From Planctomycetota bacterium (lineage in GTDB: Bacteria; Planctomycetota; UBA1135; GCA-002686595), in assembly GCA_016872715.1 (NCBI GenBank), contig VGZD01000006.1:1-60564 (forward strand): DNA of 60,564 nt. The letters run 5' to 3'. Shown here piece by piece: positions 52,714 to 60,564 of this stretch (its first letter is position 1; every line of letters begins with the position of its first letter). Position numbers and translations under genes: made by a program. The notes beneath the pieces are model-generated. The model worked only from the letters and a program-made list of their open reading frames with translations, did not search any database and was not told the origin of the DNA.

Positions 52714-54015
52714 ATGGACGCACGCGGGATCCTCGCGACCAAGCGCGACGGGCGCCGGCTCTCCGATGCGCAGATCCGTGAGTTCATCACGGGCTACGTG
52801 GCGGGCGAGATCACGGACTACCATGCGTCGGCGCTCCTGATGGCGATCTTCATCCACGGGATGGAAGAGGCGGAGCTCGCGGTGTGGGCGCGCGCGATGC
52901 TCGAGAGCGGGCGCGTGATGAAGTTCCCCGGCATCTCGCGGCCGAAGGTCGACAAGCACTCGACCGGAGGCATCGGCGACAAGGTTTCGATCCCGCTCGC
53001 GCCGGCGGTGGCGGCCTGCGGGCTCGCGGTGCCGATGATCTCGGGGCGCGGGCTCGGGCACACCGGCGGCACGCTCGACAAGCTCGAAGCGATCCCGGGT
53101 TTTTGCACGCAGCTCTGCGAGGCGGACTTCGCGCGTTGCCTCGAGCGCACGGGCGTGGCGCTCGGCGGGCAGACGCCGGACATCGTGCCCGCGGATCGCA
53201 AGCTCTACGCGCTGCGCGACGTGACGGGCCTGATCGAGTCGATCCCGCTGATCGCGAGCTCGATCATGTCGAAGAAGCTCGCGGAAGGCCTCGACGCGCT
53301 CGTGCTCGACGTCAAGTTCGGATCGGGCGCGTTCATGGTGGAGCCCTCGCGCGGCGAGGCGCTCGCCAAGGCGATGCTCGCTCTCGCGCGCGACTTCGGC
53401 GTGCGAGCGACGGCGCTGCACACGAACATGGCGCGTCCGCTCGGACGCATGGCGGGACACGCGTTGGAGATCGCGGAGAGCTTCGACTGCCTCGAGGGTC
53501 GCGGTCCGGCGGACTTGCGCGAGCTCGTGTGCCTGCAAGGCGGCGAGATGCTGCGGCTCGGCGGGCTGGCGAAGACGCTCGACGAGGGAAGGGCGCGCGT
53601 CGCGCGTTCGCTCGACGACGGCAGCGCTCGCGCGACCTTCGCGCGGGTGATCGAGGAGCAGGGCGGCGACCCGCGCTGCATGGACGACCGCGCGCGACTG
53701 CCGAAGGCGTCGCGGGTCGAGCTGGTGCGCGCGCGGCGCGACGGCGTGCTCGCGTGGCGCGATCTGCGCGCGCTCGGAGGCGCGATCTGCGAGCTCGGCG
53801 GCGGGCGCGTGAAACTCGGCGATGCGATCGACTTCGGTGTCGGCCTCGAGTTCGAGGCGCTCGAGGGCGCGGCCGTGCGTGCGGGCGACGTGCTGGCGCG
53901 CGTGCACCACGAGGGTCGCGGGCTCGCGCGAGCGCTCGCGCAGGTCGAGCGTTCGTTCGAGCTCGTCGACGCTCACGCTCCGCAGCCGCTCGTGCTTGCC
54001 ACGTGGACCGCGTGA
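52714..54015 (+). CDS. deoA: Thymidine / pyrimidine-nucleoside phosphorylase
   Basis: Phosphorolysis of thymidine, deoxyuridine or uridine to base and (deoxy)ribose-1-P, the substrate of deoB. 433 aa. The NP-II helical domain contains YHASALLMAIFIHGM. The signature KHSTGGIGDKVSIPLAP is split by the phosphate site, and SGRGLGHTGGTLDKLEAIPG follows. VKFGSGAFM and the C-terminal barrel-sandwich domain are present. Whether it is a thymidine-specific or broad pyrimidine enzyme cannot be decided from what I can see. Confidence 0.93.
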   Translation: MDARGILATKRDGRRLSDAQIREFITGYVAGEITDYHASALLMAIFIHGMEEAELAVWARAMLESGRVMKFPGISRPKVDKHSTGGIGDKVSIPLAPAVAACGLAVPMISGRGLGHTGGTLDKLEAIPGFCTQLCEADFARCLERTGVALGGQTPDIVPADRKLYALRDVTGLIESIPLIASSIMSKKLAEGLDALVLDVKFGSGAFMVEPSRGEALAKAMLALARDFGVRATALHTNMARPLGRMAGHALEIAESFDCLEGRGPADLRELVCLQGGEMLRLGGLAKTLDEGRARVARSLDDGSARATFARVIEEQGGDPRCMDDRARLPKASRVELVRARRDGVLAWRDLRALGGAICELGGGRVKLGDAIDFGVGLEFEALEGAAVRAGDVLARVHHEGRGLARALAQVERSFELVDAHAPQPLVLATWTA

Positions 54016-54033
54016 CGGTGTAGTGGCCAGCGC

Positions 54034-55299
54034 ATGCACTACCTGCGCTGCTTGATCGGAGTCGCGATCTTCATCGCTCTGGCATGGGCGGTTTCGTGGG
54101 ATCGACGTCGGTTCCAGTGGCGTGTCGTGCTCGGCGGCCTTGCGCTGCAAGTGGCGCTCGTGCTGCTCGTCGCCAGAACCGAGCTCGGGCGCGCCTTCTT
54201 CGAAGGCGCCGCGCGCTTCATCGACCGGCTCGTCTCGAAGACCGTGCCGGGCGCGCAGGCCGTGTTCGGGCACCTCTCGACCGATGGCGGCGCGGACTTC
54301 ATCTTCGCGTTCGCGGGCACGGGCCTGCTCGTGATCATCTTCATGTCCGCGCTGATGTCGATCCTCTATCACGTGGGCGTGATGCAGGTGCTCGTGTGGG
54401 CGATCGCGAAGGTGATGAGCACGACGATGGGGCTCTCCGGCGGCGAGTCGCTGGCGGCGGCGGCCAATATCTTCATGGGGCAGACCGAGGCGCCGCTCGT
54501 GATTCGGCCGTACTTGCCGAAGATGACGCGCTCGGAGCTCAACTCGCTGATGACCGGCGGTTTCGCGACCATCGCGGGTTCGGTCATGGCGATCTACCTG
54601 AAGATCCTCGGGCCCGAGCTCGCGCCGCACCTGATCACGGCCTCGGTGATGAGCGCGCCGGCGTCGTTCGTCATCTCGAAGCTCATCCTGCCCGAGCGCG
54701 AGGCGCCGCAGACCTCGCGCGGCGTCGAGCTCAGGATCGAGCGCAACGCCGTCAACGTGATCGAGGCGGCGGCCAACGGCACGAGCGACGGCTTGAAGCT
54801 GTGGCTCAACGTCGTCGCGATGCTGATCGCGTTCATCGCGCTCGTCGCGCTCGTCGATTGGCCGTTGGGCGCGCTCGGCGAGTGGCTCGGCTCGCTCGGC
54901 GTGCTCGACTCTCCGCTCTCGCTCGGCCGCATTTTCGGCTGGATCTTCGCGCCCATCGCGTGGGCGATCGGCGTCGAGGGCTGGCACGACTGCCAGATGG
55001 TCGGCTCGCTGCTCGGGACGCAGGTTTCGGTCAACGAGTTCGTCGGCTACAGCCAGCTCGGGCAGATGCTGCAAGCGACGGAGCCCGCCCTGCGCTTCGA
55101 GCACTCGCGCTCGGCGATCCTCGCGAGCTACGCGTTGTGTGGCTTCGCCAACTTCGCCTCGATCGGCATTCAGATCGGCGGCCTCTCGGCGCTCGCGCCG
55201 GAGCGCAAGGCCGACGTCTCGAAGCTCGCGCTGCGCGCGATGCTCGGCGGGGCCTTCGCGTGCTGGATGACGGCGACCGTCGCGGGAGCCTTCGTATGA
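54034..55299 (+). CDS. nupC: Concentrative nucleoside transporter (NupC/CNT)
   Basis: Ion-coupled nucleoside importer of the inner membrane, 421 aa. The family core is present: LSGGESLAAAANIFMGQTEA followed by PLVIRPYLPKMT, and FATIAGSVMAIYLK. The C-terminal half has VNEFVGYSQLG and YALCGFANFASIGIQIGGL. It has the usual set of roughly eight to ten hydrophobic helices. It feeds the phosphorylases on either side. Its stop overlaps the next gene as ATGA. Confidence 0.95.
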   Translation: MHYLRCLIGVAIFIALAWAVSWDRRRFQWRVVLGGLALQVALVLLVARTELGRAFFEGAARFIDRLVSKTVPGAQAVFGHLSTDGGADFIFAFAGTGLLVIIFMSALMSILYHVGVMQVLVWAIAKVMSTTMGLSGGESLAAAANIFMGQTEAPLVIRPYLPKMTRSELNSLMTGGFATIAGSVMAIYLKILGPELAPHLITASVMSAPASFVISKLILPEREAPQTSRGVELRIERNAVNVIEAAANGTSDGLKLWLNVVAMLIAFIALVALVDWPLGALGEWLGSLGVLDSPLSLGRIFGWIFAPIAWAIGVEGWHDCQMVGSLLGTQVSVNEFVGYSQLGQMLQATEPALRFEHSRSAILASYALCGFANFASIGIQIGGLSALAPERKADVSKLALRAMLGGAFACWMTATVAGAFV

Positions 55300-56096
55300 G
55301 CAGCACGCAGCAGGTCGAGCAGCTAGAGCGGGCCCTGCGCCACCACGGCGTGGGCGCGGTCGACGTCGCGTTCGTGCTCGGCTCGGGGCTCGGAGCGTTC
55401 GCGGAACGCATCGAGCGCGCACGCGTGATCCCCTACGCCGAGATCGACGGCATGCCGACGAGCGCGGTGAAGGGCCACGCGGGGAGGCTCGTGGTCGGCG
55501 AGCTCGGCGGCGTGCGCGTGCTCGCACAGCAGGGACGCGTACACCTCTACGAGGGTTGGAGCGTGAGCGAGGTCACGCGCGCGGTGCGCGCGATCGCGCG
55601 GCTTGGCTGCCGACGCTTCGTGCTCACCAACGCCGCGGGCGGCATCCGCCACCAGTGGCGTCCTGGCTTGCTGATGACGATTCGCGATCACATCAACCTG
55701 CAGGGTCGCTCGCCGCTCACGCGCGCCGAGTCGGGCTACGCGCGGCCCTACGACGAGGGGCTCTCGCAAACGTTGCACGCCATCGCGCGCGAGCGGGGCA
55801 TCGCGCTCGAGAGCGGCGTGTACGCGGGACTGCTCGGACCCAACTACGAGACGCCGGCGGAAATTCGCATGCTCGCCAAGCTGGGCGCGGATGCCGTTGG
55901 GATGAGCACGGTCGCGGAAGCGCTCGCGGCGCGCGCGAGCGGCGCGCGCGTGGCGGGGATCTCGCTGATCACCAATCAGGCCGCGGGCATCACGGGCGAG
56001 CCGCTGTCGCACGCGGAGGTCATGGCGGCAGGCCGCGAGGCCGCGGGTCGCTTCTCCGACCTGCTGCAGCACGCCGCGGCGCGGCTCGCGGGCTGA
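55296..56096 (+). CDS. punA: Purine nucleoside phosphorylase (trimeric type)
   Basis: Phosphorolysis of inosine and guanosine (and deoxy forms) to base and (deoxy)ribose-1-P. 266 aa. Motifs: LGSGLGAFAE, GRVHLYEGWS, RFVLTNAAGGI, GLLGPNYETPAEIRML (Glu that binds the base) and ITNQAAGI (Asn for 6-oxopurines). These fit the trimeric PNP family II. ATG at 55296 overlaps the transporter stop. Confidence 0.94.
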   Translation: MSSTQQVEQLERALRHHGVGAVDVAFVLGSGLGAFAERIERARVIPYAEIDGMPTSAVKGHAGRLVVGELGGVRVLAQQGRVHLYEGWSVSEVTRAVRAIARLGCRRFVLTNAAGGIRHQWRPGLLMTIRDHINLQGRSPLTRAESGYARPYDEGLSQTLHAIARERGIALESGVYAGLLGPNYETPAEIRMLAKLGADAVGMSTVAEALAARASGARVAGISLITNQAAGITGEPLSHAEVMAAGREAAGRFSDLLQHAAARLAG

Positions 56097-56130
56097 AAAA
56101 AACACCGCCGCGGGCGCTACAATCGCACCA

Positions 56131-56937
56131 ATGGCCCTCGACGTCCGGGAAATCGCTCGCCGCGCGGCCGCCCGCGTGCTCGCCGAGCGCATGACGCGGC
56201 CGACGGCGGTTCCCGCGGGTCGCGCCGCTCCGCTGGAAGTGCCGCGCGCGAGCGAGACGAGCGCGCCGACGAAGCCTCCGGCGCTCGCGCTGCGCGCGGC
56301 GCCGCAGGACGACAGCCGCAAGCTCGTGCTGGGCACGTGCCTCGCCGACACGCCCGATGGCGGCGTGCTGCGCGTGCCGATGGGAGCGATCGTGACGCCG
56401 CTCGCCGCGGAAGAAGCGCACCGTCGCCACATCCGCATCGAGCGCGGTGAGCGCGACAGCGCTCGCCGCATCGCGGTGGGCTGCGACCACGGCGGCTTCA
56501 CGCTCAAGCAGGAAGTGCTCGGCTGGCTGCGCGCGCTCGGGCACCAGCCGGTCGACTTCGGCACGCGCGACGAGAATCCGGTCGACTATCCCGACTTCGC
56601 GCGCGCCGTGGCCGAGGCCGTGGCGAGCGGACAGTGCGAGCTCGGCATCGTGATCGACGGAGCGGGCATCGGCTCGGCGATCGCTGCCAACAAGGTGCCC
56701 CGCGTGCGCGCGGCGACGTGCTGCGACGTCGCCATGGCGAAGAACGCGCGCGAGCACAACTACGCCAACGTGCTCTCGCTCGGCGCCAAGACGATCCAGC
56801 GCTCGGTGGCGGAGGAGATCGTGCGCACGTTCTTGTCGACGGCGCACGGTGAGGCGCGGCACGGCAAGCGCGTCGCGAAGATCACCGAGATCGAGCGGCG
56901 CTACATGAAGGGTCCCGGGAGCGGAGTGTGCGTGTGA
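56131..56937 (+). CDS. RpiB/LacAB-like sugar-phosphate isomerase with long N-terminal extension
   Basis: Protein of 268 aa; typical RpiB is about 150 aa. Residues about 113-260 are RpiB-like: [11 protein letters not shown] with Asp119-His120, [16 protein letters not shown] and [17 protein letters not shown]. The catalytic Cys of E. coli RpiB (in CGTGIG) is Asp176 here (DGAGIG). The first ~110 residues are extra: an amphipathic helix ([17 protein letters not shown]), a Pro-rich linker, then [19 protein letters not shown] and [17 protein letters not shown], a segment style seen in microcompartment-associated enzymes. It may isomerise a pentose phosphate; altered chemistry is possible. Confidence 0.8.
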
Positions 56938-57809
56938 GACTGTCGCGGGAGATGGGAGCGGGGGAGCTCGAGGCGCTGCTCGTCGAGCTCGGGCGTCGCA
57001 TCGTCGAACACGGGCCGGAGTCGGTCTTTCCGCACGGCAGCAGTGGCGTCGAGGTCGAGTTCTGCCCCGATCGCGCGCGCGAGGTGATCGCGGCTGGGGC
57101 GTGCCGACTCGGCTACTGCGGCTGCAAGGCGCCGGAGCTCAACACGCTCGCGTCCTACATCGATCACACGCTGCTCAAGCCCGAAGCGACGCTCCCGGAG
57201 CTCGACCAGCTCTGCGACGAGGCGCTGAAGACCAAGTTCGCGAGCGTGTGCGTCAACGGCGCGCACGTGCGACGCTGCGCCGAGATCCTCGCTGGCTCGG
57301 GCGTGCTCGTCTGCTCGGTGATCGGTTTTCCGCTCGGCGCCAGCGCGACCGAGGTGAAGTGCTACGAGGCGCGGCGCGCGATCGAGGACGGGGCCTGCGA
57401 GATCGACATGGTCATGAACGTCGGCTGGCTGAAGTCCGGTGCGGACGCGGCGGTCGAGCGCGACATCGCGGCGGTCGCGGACACGTGCCACAAGCTCGGT
57501 GCGCGGCTGAAGGTGATCCTCGAGACGTGCCTGCTCACCGATGCGGAGAAGGTGCGCGCGTGCGAGGCCTCCAAGCGCGCGGGCGCGGACTTCGTGAAGA
57601 CCTCGACCGGCTTCAACAAGGGCGGCGCCACGGCCGCGGACATCGCGCTGATGCGCCGCACGGTCGGCGAGCGCATGGGCGTCAAGGCCTCCGGCGGCGT
57701 GCGCGACCAGAAGACCGCGCAGGAGATGATCGCGGCCGGTGCCACGCGCATCGGCGCCAGCGCCTCGGTGGCGATCGTCAAGGGCGGCGAGTCGAAGTCG
57801 AGCTACTGA
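56934..57809 (+). CDS. deoC: Deoxyribose-phosphate aldolase with N-terminal extension
   Basis: Cleaves 2-deoxyribose-5-P to glyceraldehyde-3-P and acetaldehyde, the last step of the operon. 291 aa against about 220 usual. The TIM barrel begins at about residue 72 ([15 protein letters not shown]). The Schiff-base lysine is Lys222 in DFVKTSTGF, with Asp158 (EIDMVMN) and the lysine in [10 protein letters not shown]. The ~70-residue N-terminal extension carries a cysteine cluster (CRLGYCGC, residues 57-64). GTG at 56934 overlaps the previous stop as GTGA and is preferred to GTG 56928. No acetaldehyde dehydrogenase follows. Confidence 0.92.
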
Positions 57810-57821
57810 CGGCGCGGCGGC

Positions 57822-59345
57822 CTAGGCGCCGAAGCAGCGTGCGCGGAGCGTGCGGGAGGCGTCCGCGATCGACGCGAGCTTGCGGCTCGCGATCGCGGAG
57901 GAGGCGAGCGGGTTGTCGGCGAAGGTGGCGAAGCCGCAGTCGGGATTGAGCAGCACGCGCTCGGGGCCGAGCAGCTCGACGAGCGGCGCGATGCGCGCGC
58001 AGATTTCGTCCGCGCTCTCGACCTCGGCGCGCTTTTGGTTCACGACGCCGATGCCGATGCGCTTGCCGCGCGGGAGCTCCGCGAGCAGGCGCGCATCTCC
58101 CGCGCGCGGCGTGCAGAGCTCGAGCAACAGCGTGCCCACGCTCACGCGAGCGAGCAGCGGCAACAGCGGTCCGTAGTCGCCGTGGAGCGCGACGCTCTCG
58201 TCCGGCGACCAGTTGCCGCGGCAGACATGCAGCGCGAGCCGCTCGCGCGGGAAGCCGTCCGTGAGCTCCGCGAGCAAGCGCTCGGCGAAGGCGAGCTCCG
58301 CGGGCGTGTCGAGCTTCTCTCCGAGCGCGCCGCACATGAACGTGCGCCGCTCGCGCGCGTGGCCGAAGACCACTTCGCTCAGCACGGGCTCGTCGAATTG
58401 CACCAGCGAGACGCCCTCGGCGAGCAGTTCCGCGAGTTCCTCGCGCAGCACTCGCACGATGTCGCGCGCGAGCTCCTCGCGGTTGGCGTAGGCCCGATCG
58501 GAGATGCACTCCATCCACATCGTGCGCGTCAGCAGGTACGGCCCTGGCAGAGCGATCTTGCGCGGCTTGTCGGAGAGTTCGCGCAGGAAGCGCGCCTCGT
58601 GCAGCGCGATGGGGCGCGAGCGGCCGAGCGGCCCGAACACGGCCGGGTGGCGCACCTTGCCCGCGGGCACGTCGAGCGCGCGCAACTCGCGCTCGAACTG
58701 CTCGGGGTGCTCGACGTAGGGCAGCAGGTCGGTGATCGGAATCAGTTGGCAGTTGTCGAGGATGCCGCCGACGAAGCTCGCGTAGTTGTCGCGGCGCTGC
58801 TCGCCGTCGGTGAGCACGTCGACGCCCGCGCGCAGTTGCGCATCGACGCACAGGCGCACCGCGTCGTCGGCCGCCGCCTCGAACTGCGCGTCGTCGAGCC
58901 GCCCCTCGAGGTGGCGGTGCAGCGCGTCGAGCAGCCACGCCGGGCGCGGCCAGCTGCCGACGCCCATCACCGACAGAGGTGCGATCGCCGGAGCGGGCGC
59001 GGGCGCGGGCAGCGCGCCCTTGATCCGCACCGCGACGACGCGCTCGCGCAGCGGCATCGCGCGCGCCGCGCTCGCGGGCTTGGCGCGCGCGGGATCGAAC
59101 TTGCCCTTGGAGACGAGGAAGCTGTGCTCGCGGCCCGCTGTCACGTGGTGGACGAGCTCGTTGCCCGTCAGGCGGCACCAGGCGGGCAGATCCTCGGGCA
59201 CCGAGATCTCCGTCGAGCGGATTTCGATCAGCTCGCCCGTCTCGAGCGGGTCGATGTGCTGGCGGATGAGCAGCAAGAGCCCGTTGCCGCAGTCGAGGTC
59301 GCCGCCGTCGAAGCTCGTCTTGGGCGCGTACGGGTGCCTGCCCAC
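57822..59345 (-). CDS. Fusion of TusA-like domain and MetE-type methyltransferase core
   Basis: Protein of 507 aa, GTG start at 59345. Residues about 15-75 are TusA-like (DLDCGNGLLLLIR, EDLPAWCRLTGNELV) with Cys19 and Cys57; the canonical Cys-Pro of TusA is replaced by Cys-Gly. An Ala/Pro linker (111-122) follows. Residues 125-505 resemble the C-terminal catalytic domain of cobalamin-independent methionine synthase: GSWPRP, GEQRRDNYASFVGG, and the zinc ligands His373, Cys375 (LHVCRGNW), Glu409 (LLLEL) and Cys470 (NPDCGFAT). The folate-binding N-terminal half of MetE is missing. It follows TusA-like and DsrE-like genes by 10 bases. Methyl transfer to a thiol is likely; donor and acceptor are unknown. 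Confidence 0.8.
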   Translation of the reverse strand: MGRHPYAPKTSFDGGDLDCGNGLLLLIRQHIDPLETGELIEIRSTEISVPEDLPAWCRLTGNELVHHVTAGREHSFLVSKGKFDPARAKPASAARAMPLRERVVAVRIKGALPAPAPAPAIAPLSVMGVGSWPRPAWLLDALHRHLEGRLDDAQFEAAADDAVRLCVDAQLRAGVDVLTDGEQRRDNYASFVGGILDNCQLIPITDLLPYVEHPEQFERELRALDVPAGKVRHPAVFGPLGRSRPIALHEARFLRELSDKPRKIALPGPYLLTRTMWMECISDRAYANREELARDIVRVLREELAELLAEGVSLVQFDEPVLSEVVFGHARERRTFMCGALGEKLDTPAELAFAERLLAELTDGFPRERLALHVCRGNWSPDESVALHGDYGPLLPLLARVSVGTLLLELCTPRAGDARLLAELPRGKRIGIGVVNQKRAEVESADEICARIAPLVELLGPERVLLNPDCGFATFADNPLASSAIASRKLASIADASRTLRARCFGA

Positions 59346-59355
59346 GCCGACGAGC

Positions 59356-59715
59356 TCAGTACGAGACGCACGGCGAGCCGCCGGCGAGGAACTCGACCAG
59401 CTTGGCGCCGCCGACGATCGTCGCGCCCGCGACGAGCTTGGTTTCGTCGAGGCCGCGCTTCTTGAAGCACGGCGAGCAGACGTAGACCTTGCCGCCCGCC
59501 GCCGTGAACTTCGCCATCAGCTCCGCGAGCGGCGCGAAGCCCTCCTCGCGAATGTCGTCGGCATAACCCGGCACCGCGAGGCGCACCGCCTCGGTCGAGA
59601 GGAACACCATCGTCTCCTGCTCGGAACCGGCGGCGGCGTTGGCGACCACGAACGCGACCGTGGCCTTGTCGCGGTTGTCCTTGGCGGAAGTGAGCGAGAC
59701 GCAGAAACGGCCCAT
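59356..59715 (-). CDS. DsrE-family sulfur carrier-like protein
   Basis: A 119 aa cytosolic protein of the DsrE/DsrF/TusD fold: KATVAFVVANAAAGSEQETMV and FLSTEAVRLAVPG for the first half, then a cysteine pair Cys80 and Cys83 in VYVCSPCFKKRGL, at the position of the persulfide cysteine of DsrE/TusD. A third Cys116 is near the C-terminus. It starts 1 base after the stop of the TusA-like gene and precedes the TusA-MetE fusion. It probably passes persulfide sulfur between the two TusA-like proteins. Confidence 0.82.
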   Translation of the reverse strand: MGRFCVSLTSAKDNRDKATVAFVVANAAAGSEQETMVFLSTEAVRLAVPGYADDIREEGFAPLAELMAKFTAAGGKVYVCSPCFKKRGLDETKLVAGATIVGGAKLVEFLAGGSPCVSY

Positions 59716-59716
59716 G

Positions 59717-59956
59717 TCAGTTCTCCTTGCGACGGATGTGGTAGACGGGATGGGCGGCGAGGACGAGCGCGTGGCCTGTCAGGCCGCACCAAGCGGGAAT
59801 GTCCTCGCGCGCGCCGGGATCGAGCGCCACGAGCCGCAGCACCCGCCGCGGCGCGAGCGCGCGCAGACGCGCGCGAAGCTCGATCACGAGCTCCCCACAG
59901 CCCATCTCGCCGGCGTCCCAGTGGTCGTCGGCTCGGGGCTCCATGGGGCGTTGCAT
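59717..59956 (-). CDS. TusA-like sulfurtransferase
   Basis: A 79 aa protein with the TusA two-layer fold pattern: DAGEMGCGELVIELRARL, RRVLRLVALDPGAREDIPAW and CGLTGHALV. Cys20 and Cys57 match the two cysteines of the TusA-like domain in the downstream fusion. The canonical Cys-Pro-x-Pro is replaced by Cys-Gly-Glu. Start is ATG at 59956; ATG at 59944 is the alternative and keeps the domain. An earlier start would run into an intergenic 15 bp repeat. Confidence 0.75.
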   Translation of the reverse strand: MQRPMEPRADDHWDAGEMGCGELVIELRARLRALAPRRVLRLVALDPGAREDIPAWCGLTGHALVLAAHPVYHIRRKEN

Positions 59957-60050
59957 GGGAGAGGAGCTTAGCAGCGCGCGTGCGGGCTCACCGCGTTGGC
60001 TCGCTGCCCCACAGCGATGACCGGACATGGAAGCGCGCCCCGAGTCCGAG

Positions 60051-60165
60051 ATCACCCGCCTTGGGATCACCTGCCTTGGGATCACCCGCCTTGGGATCAC
60101 CCGCCTTGGGATCACCCGACTCGGGATCATCCGACTCGGGATCACCCGACTCGGGATCATCCACC
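60051..60165. repeat. 15 bp tandem repeat array
   Basis: Seven full 15-base units starting ATCACCCGCCTTGGG at 60051, 60066, 60081, 60096, 60111, 60126 and 60141, plus a partial eighth. Units fall in two versions (CCGCCTTGGG and CCGACTCGGG), showing stepwise expansion. It lies between the porin stop and the TusA-like gene, in no real coding frame. Confidence 0.9.
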
Positions 60166-60191: not shown

Positions 60192-60564
60192 TCAGAACGT
60201 GAAGATCATCCCGAGGAACAGGAAGTCCATGTCGTCGTCCGCGCCGGTTTCCGCGACGGCGCCGCCGGTGAAGACGTGGCTGTAGCCGCCGTAGAGATCG
60301 AGGTGGCGGTAGAGGCGGTGTTGCACGAGCAGGTCGAGTTCCTCGCCGATGTGCGTGGAGTCAAACCCGCCGGCGGGAACGTCGCGCGAGACGCTGCCGT
60401 TCAGCTGGTAGATCGCGTCTTGGTCGCTCATCAGGTTGAGCGTGTGCAGCGTGAGCGAGATGGTGGTCGCGGGGCCGGGCTTGATGCTCGTGCCGAGGTG
60501 CGCGGCCGCGACGTTCTGGCGCGAGACCGTGTCGGCAAAGCCGAGGTAGAGGTGGCCGAGCGGA
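60192..60564 (-). CDS. Outer-membrane porin, C-terminal part only (window edge)
   Basis: The frame is open to the window end, so the 5' part is missing; about 123 residues are visible. It starts PLGHLYLGFADTVSRQN and shows alternating beta strands (ATTISLTLHTLNL, LYRHLDLYGGYSHVFTGG), ending LFLGMIFTF with terminal Phe. The last strands align with those of the porin at 32420 (GQLVELRARW versus GEELDLLVQHR). Alginate-export-like family is the best guess. Confidence 0.7.
   Translation of the reverse strand, partial: PLGHLYLGFADTVSRQNVAAAHLGTSIKPGPATTISLTLHTLNLMSDQDAIYQLNGSVSRDVPAGGFDSTHIGEELDLLVQHRLYRHLDLYGGYSHVFTGGAVAETGADDDMDFLFLGMIFTF

Follow-up and report, generated by a model that had tools for sequence, protein, structure and literature searches.

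What would a TusA-like carrier domain do on the catalytic core of a methionine synthase? The question is raised by a window of 60,564 nucleotides (the whole stretch of DNA analysed, from contig VGZD01000006.1 of the Planctomycetota assembly GCA_016872715.1), in which three genes on the minus strand encode a TusA-like protein, a DsrE-family protein and a fusion of a TusA-like domain to a MetE core. A sequence-only reading of this operon had proposed a sulfur relay, with sulfur on the TusA domain being delivered to, or methylated by, the MetE centre. The analysis presented here partly supports that interpretation. The features of the operon are as follows.

59717-59956, minus strand: TusA1, a stand-alone TusA-like protein of 79 aa (PF01206, 33.6 bits)
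59356-59715, minus strand: DsrE-family protein of 119 aa with a VCSPC motif (PF02635, 54 bits)
57822-59345, minus strand: TusA2::MetE-core fusion of 507 aa with a GTG start (PF01717 and TusA matches)
59106-59318, minus strand: TusA2 domain of the fusion, residues about 10-80, with C19 and C57 (Pfam stretch 23-79)
57837-58979, minus strand: MetE catalytic core of the fusion, residues about 123-503

Domain anatomy of the operon

The open reading frame coordinates agree with the gene order, strand and spacing described earlier, with one base between TusA1 and DsrE and 10 bases between DsrE and the fusion. DsrE and the fusion are supported as real genes by their codon-position GC (GC3 0.93-0.94). 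Pfam searches bore out the domain assignments of the sequence-only reading: TusA1 and DsrE scored above the thresholds of their families, the fusion matched PF01717 at 89.5 bits (cut-off 21) and the TusA family at 28.2 bits, marginally below the cut-off of 28.6, and a profile built from the family matched the TusA chains 3lvj and 1dcj (E 2e-4). The folate half of MetE is indeed absent from the fusion, PF08267 giving only a 19.2-bit cross-match (cut-off 27) that falls within the catalytic barrel (residues 271-322).

In the MetE core, the zinc ligands are H373, C375, E409 and C470, as had been correctly placed before, and the homocysteine residues are S131, E182 and D318 (roles after Price et al. 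2021, PMC7857596). The AlphaFold model of the fusion has a mean pLDDT of 83.9, and the best PDB match of its barrel is 3rpd (Z 37.8), followed by full MetE. The MesD-type 3rpd, a methionine synthase that does not depend on B12 and whose structure was determined with selenomethionine, shares 26% identity with the fusion over the aligned structure.

The CPxP motif of the TusA sulfurtransferase is found neither in TusA1 nor in the fusion domain. In TusA1, Cys-Gly replaces Cys-Pro at the first Cys and the second Cys lies within DIPAWC, while the residue after C19 of the fusion is Gly in 108 of 108 sequences. Judged by sequence, the Cys-Gly units are a diverged TusA-like subgroup, as had been suggested.

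Conservation of the three-gene module

Among 61 planctomycete relatives, 28 carry the module on a count that takes in weak matches to other MetE-like genes, and about 23 of these are clear members. The module spans about a dozen phyla or classes. The best 80 places in a scan of genome contigs fell in Planctomycetota, Binatota, Burkholderiales, Gallionellaceae, Alphaproteobacteria and Anaeromyxobacter, and also in Rokubacteria, Acidobacteria, Chloroflexi-type MAGs, Obscuribacterales and one Actinomycetota MAG; the nearest named homologues are in Planctomycetota MAGs. Recurrence in relatives and in many phyla shows that the arrangement is not due to chance, and the fusion and its gene order, whose uniqueness to a single genome would have spoken against a shared function, are not unique.

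Of 102 loci, 96 have a DsrE gene and almost all have TusA1 ahead of the fusion, the misses being mostly at contig ends. Since the flanking genes differ among loci, the conserved unit is the three genes, and their synteny in about 100 loci upholds the earlier view that they work together. At the residue level, the zinc ligands, the homocysteine residues and the TusA cysteines C19 and C57 are essentially invariant (118-119 homologues), with His-Cys-Glu-Cys at the four zinc positions in 118 of 118 aligned homologues. The invariance of the homocysteine and zinc site suggests that methyl chemistry has been retained. No TGA codon replaced a catalytic Cys of the module in about 100 loci searched for selenocysteine.

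Several relatives have a split form, with TusA2 joined to an OsmC domain and the MetE core encoded on its own.

Locus L045, 4716-5444: TusA-OsmC fusion beside a separate MetE core (rearranged module)
Locus L046, 8962-9687: TusA-OsmC fusion beside a separate MetE core (rearranged module)

At some loci (L043 5101-5784, L051 12341-12961 and L065 5413-6204), TusA1 is extended at its N-terminus by about 100 residues that include two CxxC-like pairs. In Burkholderiales, a second, diverged DsrE-like protein (cluster 6) is encoded close to the module (L062 7499-7873 and nine further loci). In four Binatia loci, among them L061 (2820-4034), a gene close to the fusion and opposite to it in direction encodes a protein that by its sequence appearance resembles MetX (homoserine O-acetyltransferase).

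Association of the module with selenium genes

On two Paracoccus plasmids, selA and trxB lie downstream of the fusion and are co-directional with it. These neighbours prompted a test of co-occurrence, in which SelD and SelA were the markers and the counts are raw, with kinship ignored. The 44 fusion genomes belong to many phyla; 39 have SelD, 34 have SelA, and 43 have one or the other, the sole exception being a MAG. The five SelD-negative genomes are all MAGs, and four of them have SelA.

In Xanthobacteraceae, SelD is present in all 19 fusion genomes as compared to 102 of 278 others (Fisher P 1.6e-8, kinship ignored), a value that overstates independence because the fusion genomes are related; 13 of their fusion proteins are mutually 71-96% identical. 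In Alphaproteobacteria, SelD occurs in seven of eight fusion genomes (the eighth has SelA), compared with 33 of the 190 genomes that give the baseline for the class. Since SelD is common in Burkholderiales (5/6 fusion genomes versus 140/194, P 0.47; baseline 145/200) and in the planctomycete relatives (a SelD match in 61/61, 59 of them over the cut-off), these two groups are uninformative for the association. Many genomes with SelD lack the module, as do 33 of the 61 relatives, so the module is not required for selenium use.

Physical linkage was also seen. At the Xanthobacteraceae locus L144, the start of selD lies about 0.13 kb beyond the fusion and in the same orientation, selB and selA are close by and formate dehydrogenase-like genes lie upstream; selD is 2.4 kb from the fusion in L138, and selB is near it in L122. 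Such genes adjoin the module in a handful of about 118 loci, a linkage noticed after the fact. The genome from which the window comes encodes SelA and a SelD (297.6 bits) with an in-frame TGA, a probable selenocysteine codon; this host decodes selenocysteine.

G000:C82:7000-13000 (locus L142, same genome as the window): SelA, a MATE-like transporter and SelD with an in-frame TGA, grouped

Co-occurrence and the neighbouring selD, selA and selB thus point to selenium, where the sequence-only reading had named sulfur as the element carried, and we conclude that the module most likely handles selenium. The same chemistry performed with sulfur is unlikely but deserves consideration. This version, which stays near the sequence-only reading, would be a relay of sulfane sulfur, with the MetE core adding a methyl group to, or removing one from, a TusA persulfide or methyl-disulfide, for example in the assimilation of methanethiol or another organosulfur compound. 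Such a relay would suit TusA and DsrE, which are classic sulfur carriers, the fusion of TusA2 in the split relatives to OsmC, of the thiol peroxidase family, and the SufS/CsdA-type desulfurase that adjoins the Paracoccus operon, but it leaves the SelD/SelA association and the neighbouring selD, selA and trxB unexplained.

The module and methionine synthesis

Whether the host has a full metE or metH had been raised as a check on the role of the fusion. A match to the MetH activation domain was found in the genome, together with MetF, and PF01717 matched at a single locus. Nearly all relatives likewise have MetH and MetF matches, whether they carry the module or not. We therefore rejected the simple reading of the fusion as sole methionine synthase, and with MetH and MetF in the host the fusion is unlikely to be simply the host's enzyme for this step.

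A subtler form of this idea is that the module represents a fifth family of folate-independent core methionine synthases, in which homocysteine would be methylated by some further donor and the TusA and DsrE parts would provide that donor or control the redox state, in the manner of MesX with MesD. MesA, MesB, MesC and MesD resemble the module in having a MetE barrel without the folate half and the same zinc and homocysteine residues, whereas the module adds an N-terminal TusA domain, the conserved TusA1 and DsrE partners and the association with SelD. In favour of such a role, the fusion family is invariant at every zinc and homocysteine position described for MesA-D, its nearest solved structure is the MesD-type 3rpd with bound selenomethionine, and there are metX-like neighbours in Binatia, which fit ordinary methionine metabolism and in that respect speak against selenium. 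MesX (DUF1852) was not recognised among the genes around the module. The presence of MetH and MetF regardless of the module gives no sign of replacement, and the selenium association is left unaccounted for, which makes a fifth family rather improbable in our view.

Operon companions and candidate importers

Operons of proteobacteria often include, between DsrE and the fusion, genes for a PhnD/PhnE/PhnC-type substrate-binding protein, permease and ATPase, and/or for a small membrane protein and a secreted, membrane-anchored protein. The secreted, C-terminally anchored protein and the small membrane protein have no Pfam match (L085 4378-5895, L085 3826-4365 and L133 6853-8937), and the predicted model of the former (cluster 7) is poor, with a mean pLDDT of 55. 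An assignment of clusters 7 and 9 to a tripartite tricarboxylate transporter was dropped, as neither has a Pfam match. A 363-residue protein of no Pfam family is encoded near the Paracoccus operon (L133 1408-2499) and has a 33% identical relative beside the fusion in L078.

The substrate-binding protein is nearest to HtxB (E 1e-82), and its match to the 'putative selenate' binding protein TIGR04553 is below the cut-off. Its pocket is of mixed HtxB/PtxB character (W, STS, H), for it retains W52 of HtxB and shares with PtxB the STS and His at positions that are Asn and Phe in HtxB. In this it resembles the 'hybrid' class of Bisson et al. (PMC5700983), which has no assigned ligand. Given the HtxB-type W52 and a Ser/His pocket like that of the hybrid class, the predicted ligand is likely a small oxyanion.

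These features could also serve selenium handling without demethylation, in which selenite would be imported, reduced and carried by TusA and DsrE, and detoxified or stored as homocysteine selenenylsulfide or selenomethionine at a MetE-like site that holds homocysteine; the phosphite-type STS...H contacts of the HtxB/PtxB-like protein, given the presumed likeness of selenite to phosphite, and trxB in the Paracoccus operon agree with this, but it offers no reason for the invariance of a complete methyl-transfer zinc and amino-acid site, and we consider it very unlikely.

In the window, the module is preceded by a truncated gene that runs in the same direction.

60192-60563, minus strand: C-terminal part of an Alginate_exp outer-membrane porin-like gene, cut by the contig end (PF13372, 50 bits)

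A full-length homologue lies directly upstream of the module in a sister genome (L033), and the region upstream of the module in planctomycetes repeatedly contains porin-like genes and a transglutaminase-like gene. The porin-like gene is a possible companion of the module.

Comparison with known selenium systems

YedF, a protein of TusA and DsrE domains, is linked to SelD and selenium metabolism, its function being unproven (PMC5322559). Like the module, YedF (TIGR03527), which occurs with YedE, combines TusA (SirA-like) and DsrE domains with a link to SelD. It differs in being a single chain with a CPxP TusA, a CGxC DsrE and no MetE core, whereas the module has separate genes, two Cys-Gly TusA units, a CSPC DsrE and a MetE core, and is thus distinct from the YedF family. 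The transporters differ as well, being of HtxB/PhnD type with the module and YedE with YedF.

Methyltransferases of the UroD/MetE superfamily in type 1 mlp clusters have been linked to methyl-selenide demethylation; 87% of the species that encode type 1 mlp/Sdm proteins make selenocysteine, use of dimethylselenide requires an Sdm gene, and ClMlp2 methylates selenide (PMC10418091). In selenium-starved Methanococcus maripaludis, TusAD transcripts rise by about 4.5 log2 and the SdmABC operon by 5.6-7.8 log2 (PMC11097638). Type 1 mlp and SdmABC share with the module zinc methyltransferases of the same superfamily and a strong co-occurrence with selenium genes. The mlp systems comprise a UroD-type Mlp with a His-Cys-Cys zinc site and a corrinoid protein, and belong to anaerobes; the module, in contrast, has a MetE fold match, a His-Cys-Glu-Cys site and a homocysteine acceptor site, which place it outside the mlp group, and many of its hosts are, to go by the named genera, aerobes. 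No corrinoid protein was recognised among the recurrent neighbours of the module. The module joins TusA/DsrE and Sdm-type methyltransferase functions in one operon and one protein. In the literature on TusA with MetE, and on TusA/DsrE with SelD and methionine synthase, we found no description of a TusA::MetE fusion.

A proposed route for selenium

We tentatively propose that the three genes form an accessory module for selenium acquisition or salvage. In this scheme selenium would be the cargo and homocysteine the methyl acceptor. An oxidised or methylated selenium compound would enter through an outer-membrane porin and/or the HtxB/PhnD-type ABC importer, and the Cys-Gly TusA domains and DsrE would hold selenium bound to the protein, in the form of a selenenylsulfide or perselenide. 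The zinc MetE core, having bound homocysteine as a zinc thiolate, would remove the methyl group of the methyl-selenium that the fused TusA domain holds, yielding methionine and a TusA perselenide, and DsrE and TusA1 would then pass the selenium towards SelD for conversion to selenophosphate. We prefer demethylation of TusA-bound methyl-selenium followed by DsrE/TusA delivery to SelD because this reading employs every conserved part. We know of no precedent for a methyl group passing from a selenenylsulfide to a zinc thiolate.

Described methyl-selenium systems use corrinoids. That the module provides corrinoid-free demethylation of methyl-selenium in aerobic or facultative bacteria, with TusA-tethered selenium, MetE-catalysed methyl transfer to homocysteine, delivery to SelD and a dedicated HtxB-like importer as candidate transporter specific for selenium, is a possibility that we advance with greater reserve. 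If true, it would take the chemistry of MetE beyond methionine synthesis and into selenium salvage. In culturable genera such as Duganella, Massilia, Paraburkholderia and Paracoccus, the module provides named candidates that can be tested as carrier, demethylase and importer.

Other features of the window

Convergent with the module, genes at 52714-57809 (plus strand) have the look of nucleoside/deoxyribose catabolism; judged from their sequences, they encode a pyrimidine phosphorylase, a nucleoside transporter, and RpiB-like and DeoC-like proteins. They are not conserved next to the module in distant relatives. An Rfam search of the window for a riboswitch gave no match other than one tRNA. 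Between the porin fragment and TusA1, a 15-base tandem repeat occupies 60050-60159, with 7.3 copies at 93% match.
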